In this document: positions 33,318 to 62,980 of the stretch, piece by piece
Position numbering within the stretch: the stretch's first letter is position 1
How the letters are laid out: each line of letters begins with the position of its first letter
NCBI GenBank assembly: GCA_021323595.1
Contig: JAJPKR010000026.1
Span: forward strand, 62,001-126,000
Direction of reading: 5' to 3'
Length of the DNA stretch: 64,000 bases
Origin: Terriglobia bacterium
Lineage (GTDB): Bacteria; Acidobacteriota; Terriglobia; Terriglobales; SCQP01
Program-made: the position numbers and the translations under genes
The notes under the pieces: model-generated
The model's database searches: none
The model's input: the letters and a program-made list of their open reading frames with translations, nothing else
What the model was told of the DNA's origin: nothing

Positions 33318-33723
33318 AGCCACGCGCTCCCGGCCGCCGCGCTTGCATCGCAGCGCGGAGTACCGCGCCGTCTACCAAGGCGGGCGACGCTGGCCGCAGC
33401 CGCATTTCGTGCTCTTGGCACGCCCCGCGCCGCCGCAAGAGCACGAATCGCGCGTGGGGATCACCACCTCGCGCCAATTGGGCGGCGCGGTGGCGCGCAA
33501 TCGGCTGCGGCGGCGGCTGCGTGAAGTGATCCGCCGCAATTGGCGGGCGGCGCCGGCGGGCTGGCACTTGGTGATCCACCCGCGCCGGGAAGCTGCCGAG
33601 GCGACATTCGCGGCGCTGGAAGCCGAATGGCGGCAGGCGGTGGCACGACTCGGCGCGCCGCCGGGCGCGCGGCCGGGCGCGGGCCCGGGCGCGGGCCCGG
33701 GCGCGGGGAAGGAAAAGCGATGA
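33298..33723 (+). CDS. rnpA: Ribonuclease P protein component
   Basis: 141 residues from GTG 33298. [22 protein letters not shown] and [16 protein letters not shown] form the RNR motif that contacts RNase P RNA. The enzyme trims tRNA 5' ends. The last 25 residues are a tandem Pro-Gly-Ala tail encoded by a GC-rich 12-nt repeat (about 33660-33711), not part of the family. yidD starts in its stop codon (ATGA overlap). Confidence 0.92.
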
Positions 33724-61063: not shown

Positions 61064-61140
<77 letters not shown>

Positions 61141-61256: not shown

Positions 61257-61376
61257 GCTGACCCTAGGGGGAAGCCGCTGTTCCTGCTTGCTAGCCTAAC
61301 TCTGGGATTATCAAGTTTTTGCAGTTCGGCGGCGGGCCTACTCAACCTGGTCGCCGACAGAAAGGATACCTGTACC

Positions 61377-61820
61377 ATGCGTCGTTTTCAACTTGCTGCC
61401 ATCACGGTGTTATTCTCCCTTTGCGCGATTGTAGGCGTGCGCCAGTGGCTGAGCCCAGGGCCCAGCGGCGACGTGGTTTACGCCATGTCCACCGCGATGC
61501 CGGCTCCGGGCATTAGCCCCTACGCGACGGCGGCTACGAGTGGAACAGGTTTTCCAATTCCGGGCAGCGGGCTTGCCAAGAGCGGCACGGGCCTCCCGAT
61601 CCCGGGCAGCGGGCTACGGAGCGGAACAGGCCTCCCGATCCCGGGCAGCGGGCTACGGAGCGGAACAGGCCTCCCGATCCCGGGCAGCGGCGTGGCGAAG
61701 AGCGGAACTGGCCTCCCGATCCCGGGCAGCGGCGTGGCGAAGAGCGGAACGGGCCTCCCGATCCCGGGCAGCGGGCTACGGAGCGGAACAGGCCTCCCGA
61801 TCCCGGGCAGCGGCTGGTAG
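61377..61820 (+). CDS. Secreted protein with seven [11 protein letters not shown] tandem repeats
   Basis: 147 residues. A signal-anchor-like start ([20 protein letters not shown]) and a short spacer precede seven repeats of [11 protein letters not shown] followed by LR, VAK or LAK (residues about 55-147). It ends GSGW. The repeat has Gly, Pro and Ser but no charges apart from the linker Arg/Lys. I recognise no family. It may be an extracellular matrix, adhesin or cell-wall peptide. No other gene is closely linked in the same operon. Confidence 0.75.
61539..61820 (+). repeat. Seven-copy 39/42-bp tandem repeat
   Basis: Units at 61539 (42), 61581 (39), 61620 (39), 61659 (42), 61701 (42), 61743 (39) and 61782 (39 bp). 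Each carries CCCGGG. The last unit ends in the stop codon TAG. Units 2-6 are almost identical; unit 1 is the most diverged. Confidence 0.95.
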
Positions 61821-61853: not shown

Positions 61854-62591
61854 GTGCCCCAGTTGAGCCTTAGTCTTATTCCGGGCCTGATCGGTACACT
61901 GGCGAAGGCCGGGGGACTGGCCCTCGCGTTTCGACTTCCGCTCAAAAGGTGGCTCGTCGTAAAGCTCTGGCTCCTCCTCATGCTGTTGGAGGACATTGCG
62001 CTTTATGGCGTCCTCTGGCTCGGCTTCAATCCCAAGACTTCGATTCTTTACGCGCAGGTCTACTACTGGTCCGACCTGATTGTCGTCTTTTTCGGCCTGC
62101 TGGTGCTGCTGCGGCTGGCTGAGACCGTTCTCGCCAAAACCAGGATTTCCCTCCCCATGGTCCGCGGCACAGCCGTGGCCATTTTGGCCGGAATTGCGAT
62201 CGTCAGTTTTGCCGCCGTGTTCAGCCGCCTCGGCCCGGCTGCCTTCAGCCTGCGGCACCTGATCGCCTTCGCCAACGAGGCCGAGCAGAACCTGGCGGCC
62301 GCCGGCATGCTCGGCTCATTCGTGCTGTGGGGAGCCATCGGGGCGATGCACGTGCCCGGGCTGCGTATTCGCCGCATCGCGGCCGGCTGCGGCATCTTTT
62401 ACAGCGCCAGCGCCTGCGCGTGGTCCTTGGTCGCGGTGTTCGGCTACATCTTGAGCTGGGCCGTGCCGCTTCTTTCTACCGCTTCGATCGTCCTGCTCGC
62501 ATATGCGATGGCGGAGCGGGAAGAAGGCCAGCCGCCGCGGCCGAGGCGCGCGGACTTGCCGCTGGCGCTTCCGCAACAGGGGGCGGCATGA
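61854..62591 (+). CDS. Multi-spanning membrane protein, unknown function
   Basis: 245 residues with about seven hydrophobic segments (for example [20 protein letters not shown] and [16 protein letters not shown]) and a basic/Pro-rich C-terminal tail. No family recognised. GTG 61854 is the longest start; TTG 61863 has GAGGG 8 nt upstream and is possible. The next gene begins in its stop codon (ATGA), so the two are a coupled pair. Confidence 0.7.
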
Positions 62592-62980
62592 TCGCGATTC
62601 CGCCGCCGCCGGACCTGGGCCGCTCGCTGATCGAGCTTGCGATCAGCGCGATTGCGCTCATCTTCTTCACCCTCCGTTATGCGCATTCCCGCGTCGCCGG
62701 CGCCAAGCTTTCCCTTTTGGCGGAGCTGAAGCAGGCGGGCCTGCTGTCCGGCGATCCGCACAAGGACTACCGCACGCTGACCCGTCTCATTCACACCATG
62801 TCGCCAGCGGTCACCTTGCGGTCGGAGTTCTGGGTGGGCTTTTATGCCGTTTCGATGAATATGGCGGGCGTGCTGTTTTCGGATTGGGCCCATCGCCAGC
62901 TCCAGCTCCTTGCCGCCCACCAAGCCGGCCGATATAAGCTGGCGCTGCAACGTCTCGACGCCCTGCGCTTCGAAGCGTGA
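62588..62980 (+). CDS. Small membrane-anchored protein, unknown function
   Basis: 130 residues. One N-terminal hydrophobic segment (SLIELAISAIALIFFTL), then a hydrophilic part with LLAELKQAGLLSGDPHKDYR and WVGFYAVSMNMAGVLFSDW, ending charged. ATG 62588 overlaps the previous stop by 4 nt. It is probably a partner of the membrane protein upstream. No family recognised. Confidence 0.7.
   Translation: MIAIPPPPDLGRSLIELAISAIALIFFTLRYAHSRVAGAKLSLLAELKQAGLLSGDPHKDYRTLTRLIHTMSPAVTLRSEFWVGFYAVSMNMAGVLFSDWAHRQLQLLAAHQAGRYKLALQRLDALRFEA

Follow-up and report, generated by a model that had tools for sequence, protein, structure and literature searches.

A tandem-repeat peptide gene coupled to a gene for a seven-transmembrane protein in Acidobacteriota: a candidate peptide signalling module

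Bacterial signalling systems such as ComX/ComP, Agr and CSP/ComD pair a secreted peptide with a polytopic receptor in the membrane, and the two genes lie side by side; each precursor carries one peptide, the receptors are histidine kinases, and the systems are found mainly in Firmicutes. Repeated peptides within one precursor are known from fungi: the P-factor precursor contains four to eight repeats in wild S. pombe strains (PMC6342294), and the architecture of Kex2-processed repeat proteins (KEPs) has been described (PMC7329392). Seven transmembrane segments (7TM) are present in the LytS-type kinase BtsS, a bacterial receptor for pyruvate (PMC10653868). Our survey of open-licence papers recovered no acidobacterial peptide signalling, 7TM peptide receptor or tandem precursor that matches the system described here; Acidobacteriota are among the most abundant bacteria of soils.

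We analyzed a stretch of 64,000 nucleotides from a Terriglobia bacterium (contig JAJPKR010000026.1; referred to below as the window), in which an initial annotation had singled out a gene for an exported protein built from seven repeats. As detailed below, this gene belongs to a well-supported peptide/7TM gene module, and sequence comparisons suggest that the 7TM protein might function as a receptor. Both the operon with its two membrane proteins and the phylum-wide peptide/7TM family go beyond what had been noticed before.

The repeat precursor gene and its operon

The repeat gene (Table 1) starts with an ATG codon that is preceded by a ribosome-binding-like AAAGGA sequence (61361-61366). Its product is organized into an N-terminal hydrophobic signal or anchor segment, a spacer of about 30 residues and seven units (residues 55-146), the last of which is followed by a tryptophan residue and the stop codon. 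Hence, the open reading frame and an array reaching the end of the gene are real, as originally described, and the predicted export of the protein is judged from its signal sequence. Tandem Repeats Finder reported a single array at this locus (61532-61813; 7.0 copies with a period of 39 and a score of 350), which outscores all others of the window by a wide margin; at 33652-33707, there is a short tandem repeat with a G+C-rich unit of 12 bp (GGCGCGCGCCCG, about 4.5 copies). Since all frames stay open in an array of this kind, antisense and +1 open reading frames also run across it, and the correct frame was chosen by homology. The repeat gene is present in a single copy in its genome (a 3.55-Mb draft of 65 contigs), and, as a short sequencing read does not span the array, the copy number of seven is possibly inexact.

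Profile searches against Pfam and NCBIfam yielded no family for the repeat protein, which upholds the earlier view that its unit is unlike known families. Because these searches were negative for all three operon proteins, assignment to a known repeat or protein family was rejected. Likewise, we rejected an RNA- or DNA-level function of the array: the only Rfam match in the window was the neighboring tRNA-Pro gene, and the array RNA folds more weakly than shuffled sequences (z = +4.85), which renders an RNA role unlikely.

Table 1. Position of the repeat gene, its parts and its neighbors in the window
Feature	Position	Strand	Basis
tRNA-Pro(CGG), neighbor and landmark	61064..61140	-	ARAGORN, Rfam; same tRNA at the equivalent site of G002 and G007
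Repeat peptide precursor gene, 147 aa	61377..61820	+	ORF call; homologues of the same architecture in G001, G006, G008, G009 and G012
Predicted signal peptide or signal anchor	61377..61448	+	Sequence; alignment to MKNGLRAAVVVVLFLCAVVGL and MRKLQIATIAVLLSLCSVVGVRE in relatives
Seven SGTG(L/F)PIPGSG units in tandem (linkers LAK, LR, LR, VAK, VAK, LR)	61539..61814	+	Sequence, Tandem Repeats Finder, silent differences far exceeding replacements
Candidate receptor, a seven-transmembrane protein of 245 aa (start codon GTG)	61854..62591	+	AlphaFold2, charge pattern, family alignments A1/A4/A9
Membrane protein, 130 aa; candidate transducer or co-receptor	62588..62980	+	Third gene conserved in the window's family

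A three-gene operon starts with the repeat gene; it encodes the peptide precursor, a predicted 7TM protein and a small membrane protein. The 7TM gene begins 33 bases after the stop codon of the repeat gene, and its own stop codon overlaps the start of the third gene (ATGA), whose 130-aa product possesses an N-terminal hydrophobic segment followed by a more hydrophilic remainder. No conserved kinase, G protein or regulator is encoded beside the operon, and the cassette is devoid of a conserved processing protease.

The same three-gene cassette is conserved in related genomes, where it is embedded among other flanking genes and carries a different unit (G001, G006 and G009, contigs JAJYIU010000022, JAKASR010000007 and DAIDIF010000090, as well as G012 and others; in G008, contig JAKATS010000406 ends within the second gene). 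The first gene of these relatives retains the signal sequence (MKNGLRAAVVVVLFLCAVVGL...), and the unit is changed to SGTSTAPYPGTG (six copies), NNSSAPFPGSG (five), TGTSAPFPGT (three), NGIGDPPPMG (seven) or, in G012, NGLGDPPPMG (ten). In G002 and G007, the same site next to the same tRNA-Pro(CGG) gene is occupied by a first gene of just 47 codons with one ...SAPIPGS or ...SAPVPGT end; one copy of the unit is also found in G005 and G013, and two copies are present in G003 and at the second locus of G004. The proposal that copy number varies between strains is therefore borne out at the level of species, among which 1, 2, 3, 5, 6, 7 or 10 copies were found.

Just downstream of the single-copy orthologous locus in G002, there is another repeat reading frame with a 15-residue period (L026, 5585-6925; GAEPSPAQAGRPALI / GWAPRQSTRDAPPER frames). 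Low-scoring matches to the repeat protein in other genomes (long reading frames, antisense frames) were set aside as low-complexity noise, the L035 match proved to be an unrelated gene, G473 (L076) is not a member of the family, and the membership of G365 (L074) is uncertain.

Variation and selection within the tandem arrays

The copies of the window's array had been described as identical at the codon level. This is not the case: they are alike but differ in their codons (ACA/ACG/ACT, GGA/GGC and GGG/GGC), the first unit being more diverged (FPIP), and the cores differ by at least eight silent changes vs. one that alters an amino acid. Comparable arrays of PxP cores were found at separate loci elsewhere, with units such as AGITGSDPRPPKSSVVV (12 copies), FGPGGGMPSPIGQTGLIA (11-12), AVTGSDPMPKSKGGLTT (10), KGIIGSLPRPAGT (8-9), FPMGTNPLPRVNEAA (6-7), FGPGDPSPIGH (5), AAGPWPFPDDSAGGNI (3) and others. 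Thus, the core was amplified in tandem on many independent occasions, from three up to 12 copies.

We counted the minimum number of changes in 17 arrays, comprising that of the window and 16 others in which a signal peptide is likewise followed by tandem near-identical peptides and short variable linkers, the layout of an alpha-factor-like precursor. There were 179 silent changes on 200 silent sites and 37 replacement changes on 562 replacement sites, corresponding to a pN/pS ratio of 0.07 (binomial p ~1e-67 on minimum counts) for units with at least 65% identity to the consensus, a threshold that very degenerate units would escape. Since the copies differ at silent sites and hardly in their amino acids, the peptide itself is under selection. 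The linkers, in contrast, vary freely (LAK/LR/VAK; LEKA/LVKA; LAK/LVAM); most of them contain one lysine or arginine, and some contain neither (LVAM and LAAM in G009). Constant cores separated by freely varying linkers are the pattern expected if each unit were a functional peptide and the linkers were spacers.

The suggestion that the array had recently expanded or is being homogenized fares less well, although part of it stands. Within the arrays of G009 and G012, two species of one genus, the silent divergence between copies amounts to 0.49 and 0.62, respectively, vs. 0.29 between the 7TM genes of the two species, so that a simple recent duplication is insufficient to explain these arrays; copies in the relatives are heavily diverged at silent sites while their amino acids are constant. 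However, turnover exists. All copies in G009 (L024, 7711-8127) read NGIGDPPPMG and all copies in G012 (L062) read NGLGDPPPMG, and some array-wide change must therefore also have occurred, while G006 represents the opposite extreme with five identical copies. Taken as a whole, the main signal in the arrays is purifying selection on the peptide rather than recent expansion or homogenization.

The seven-transmembrane protein and its peptide partners across the order

An AlphaFold2 model of the 7TM protein built with 68 family members contains exactly seven helices (mean pLDDT 88.1, pTM 0.83). Lysine and arginine residues are concentrated in loops 1, 3 and 5 and at the C-terminus, a distribution that implies a predicted topology with the N-terminus outside and the C-terminus inside. 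Among the conserved polar residues are Y66 and Y70, which lie in helix 3 at its outer end. No histidine or cysteine residue is conserved in the family alignment, which speaks against a protease of the metallo- or cysteine type. We found no relative of the protein by sequence in PADLOC or the PDB either, and a structure-based family assignment was rejected because neither of two Foldseek runs gave a match below E 0.001. The GPCRs, Ste2 and rhodopsins that Foldseek retrieved have high probability values; their best E-value, however, is 0.046, and their TM-scores reach at most 0.53. The model thus suggests a receptor-like arrangement of seven helices, which is not proof of membership among the GPCRs.

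A profile of the 245-aa protein matched in 12 genomes belonging to the window's family. It also matched two distant proteins elsewhere in the order, which are true homologues according to profile-profile comparison (hhalign 97.3%, E 2.7e-11). A profile of these distant proteins, in turn, matched in 227 of the 249 genomes of the order, with one to ten copies in each, while homologues are sparse in the rest of the phylum; the order-wide proteins, too, are without a Pfam or NCBIfam model. At a typical locus, the 7TM gene is preceded by a small open reading frame (mostly 37-100 aa, longer if repeated) encoding a signal peptide and a PxP core, for instance VVGGTDPEPQ, TGSDPRP, MGTNPHPQ or ADGSDPMPLC (also GTDPEP and GSDPRP). 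Such a small secreted PxP peptide precedes almost every 7TM gene examined outside of one orphan clade.

This coupling of peptide and 7TM genes is far above expectation. In 22 of 29 loci, a reading frame with a signal peptide and a [DNAGS]PxP motif ends at most 330 nt upstream on the same strand, with 0.016 expected per locus; the strict motif G[TSG][DNAS]PxP was present in 18 of the 29 (0.0018 expected per locus), the expected frequencies being taken from 396 kb of background strand. Since the 29 loci had been taken from the top of the score list and included some on which the motif had first been noticed, we tested 77 further loci from this list, among which the automatic rule called a peptide in 45. 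Inspection revealed additional peptide loci that the rule had missed owing to arrays above the length limit or to a slight variation of the motif.

Of 106 order-wide 7TM proteins placed in a tree together with 11 from the window's family, 83 received a peptide call from the automatic rule, a number that includes one clearly false call (L157) and one mis-call of the 7TM gene itself (L164). Seventeen of the 23 proteins lacking such a call fall into a single clade of 18, the orphans; the other six (L114, L138, L153, L159, L160 and L168) do have a peptide by eye. The orphan clade (including L110, L116, L118, L135, L136, L139, L142, L143, L144, L148, L152, L155 and L187) is a conserved 7TM subfamily without a peptide gene, whose upstream genes, among those examined, mostly encode CBS-domain or DUF58 proteins (each type confirmed by Pfam for one example). 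Its role may reveal the ancestral function of the family.

Three subtypes of the locus can be distinguished. In the first, a peptide with a hydrophobic C-terminal tail is followed in order by the 7TM gene and a third gene of about 180 codons; in the second, the peptide has a cysteine pair and a third gene is present in some loci and absent from others; the third is the repeat type found in the window's family, where the third protein has 130 aa. Homology between the 130-aa and the ~180-aa proteins was undetectable (hhalign 1.5%), and the notion that the third gene of the window's family is homologous to that of the rest of the order was rejected on this basis.

Eight 7TM genes are present in one genome (G040), and the peptide that accompanies them differs in every case. 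The plasmids pACPOL3 and pACPOL1 of Acidisarcina polymorpha carry one copy each, in which the 7TM gene and the preceding small gene are annotated only as hypothetical proteins; the two small genes encode ...AVGGGAPRPVKGEN... and ...AAVGGTNPRPGRGAS.... At the pACPOL3 locus (L107, 2268-2558), a gene encoding a sigma-70 region 4 protein runs divergently to the peptide gene and is a possible regulator or output. The whole small peptide gene is tandemly duplicated at L096, L101 and L103; at the latter two, three tandem paralogous peptide genes stand before one 7TM gene, an alternative route of multiplication. Elsewhere in the phylum, some families have the peptide and 7TM genes in divergent orientation (L068, L070, L073, L190 and L191), with cores such as FGTAPPPPLPPP or CCPIPPPPPP.

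Possible functions and relation to known systems

We see about an even chance that the gene at 61377-61820 encodes the multi-copy precursor of a peptide pheromone and the adjacent 7TM gene its receptor. The precursor would be exported by the Sec pathway, as indicated by the signal sequence only, and would probably be cut at the linkers into near-identical short proline-containing units such as GITGSDPRPPKSSVVVA. The released peptide would act outside the cytoplasm as a ligand of the 7TM protein, which would signal inward, in the window's family jointly with the small membrane protein. Such a module might serve autocrine or population sensing and would resemble alpha-factor/Ste2 in design without being homologous to it. 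The eight gene pairs of G040 with their eight peptides would fit parallel, specific channels. The wider proposal, to which we assign a probability slightly under one half, is that Acidobacteriota possess a large undescribed system of cell-cell signalling: stand-alone 7TM receptors would read secreted PxP peptides, which often derive from tandem multi-copy precursors, and each genome would contain several such pairs in parallel. It would amount to a bacterial counterpart of pheromone/GPCR signalling.

Several observations count against signalling: the missing conserved kinase, G protein, regulator and protease, the linkers without lysine or arginine, the weak Foldseek matches and a third gene that is not detectably homologous across the order. 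The outer halves of the 7TM helices vary more than the inner halves in every group, yet this variability is not specific to pairing with a peptide because the peptide-less orphan clade shows it as well. Charge complementarity between the PxP residue of the peptide and 7TM columns, assessed with phylogenetic contrasts, was not significant (p = 0.38), so that there is so far no direct sign of binding between the two partners.

The main rival explanation holds that the peptide is a secreted bacteriocin-like effector directed against close relatives and that immunity or self-protection is conferred by the 7TM protein together with the small membrane protein. A small secreted peptide that adjoins membrane proteins, the hydrophobic C-terminal tail or paired cysteines of many peptides across the order, rapid peptide diversification and the plasmid-borne copies in A. 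polymorpha would all suit such a role. However, the module is near-universal in the order rather than patchy, and the 7TM family contains an orphan clade without a peptide; for these two reasons we consider this explanation unlikely. The cores of the window's family are short, hydrophilic and repeated without any toxin-like feature, and searches with NCBIfam bacteriocin models (for eight peptides) and with PADLOC were negative.

It is more doubtful still that the repeat protein remains uncut and forms a flexible extracellular structural or adhesive polymer that the membrane proteins export, anchor or assemble. Elastin-like PGxG turns are indeed present in the window's family (PGSG/PGTG), and secreted arrays of up to 12 units are long, but the many members with a single core (precursors of 47-60 aa) are too small for this purpose, the cores stay constant next to variable linkers, and the 7TM protein, lacking conserved histidine and cysteine residues, matches no transporter or protease family.

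We regard as very improbable a cis-acting regulatory leader or translation-arrest peptide of the SecM/RAPP type that controls translation of the 7TM gene. Arrest peptides associated with Sec/YidC (PMC10987492, PMC7897499) are secreted, proline-containing and encoded directly before a membrane-protein gene, and in the window the peptide gene is upstream of and co-oriented with the 7TM gene, as an arrest leader requires. Nevertheless, cis action on 7TM translation is incompatible with the loci at which the two genes are divergent, an arrest sequence is not expected to occur in tandem copies, and in many members the core is followed by a hydrophobic tail. In a single draft genome with an array difficult for short reads, one might suspect an error of assembly, or a recent tandem expansion without meaning in a frame of no importance. 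This view is already contradicted by the conserved operon, by independent arrays in many genomes, some of which consist of a single contig, and by the strong deficit of replacement changes over the 17 arrays (pN/pS 0.07, p ~1e-67), and its probability is negligible.

Should the pheromone and receptor reading be correct, near-universal peptide/7TM pairs in one order, with up to ten 7TM genes per genome, would constitute a new signalling language, one that is directly testable because its ligands can be read from the genome and synthesized. If the 7TM proteins are receptors, they would represent bacterial peptide-to-7TM signalling without a fused kinase.

With ComX/ComP, Agr and CSP/ComD, the acidobacterial module shares the adjacency of the genes, but it contains no kinase. 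The 7TMR-DISM, 7TMR-HD and LytS-type proteins are likewise 7TM sensory membrane proteins of bacteria, and sensors such as BtsS carry fused output domains. The 7TM protein described here, in contrast, is a stand-alone protein to which no kinase, HD or cyclase domain is fused; its gene is coupled to that of a peptide, and neither a Pfam or NCBIfam match nor an output domain places it among them. Like SecM, VemP and RAPP, the peptide gene is a small secreted proline-containing reading frame just upstream of a membrane-protein gene; unlike them, it has tandem cores and a divergent orientation in some families, and its downstream gene is not Sec/YidC. The fungal systems MFalpha1/Ste2 and map2/Mam2 of S. 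pombe and the KEPs offer the closest parallel in the signal peptide, the tandem short peptides, the short linkers and the variable copy number. The partner of the fungal pheromones is also a 7TM protein, and Ste2 is the second Foldseek match of the AlphaFold model (E 0.048, TM 0.45). They differ in that the acidobacterial module is bacterial, that its peptide and candidate receptor have no detectable homology to the fungal ones (no Pfam or PDB sequence match to Ste2/Mam2 class D GPCRs), that a G protein is missing and that the gene pair is adjacent in one operon; dibasic KR sites of the Kex2 type were not found between the units, where most linkers offer a single basic residue. In their repeated and independent origin, the tandem precursors of the Acidobacteriota have clearly converged on the gene architecture known from mating pheromones of fungi.
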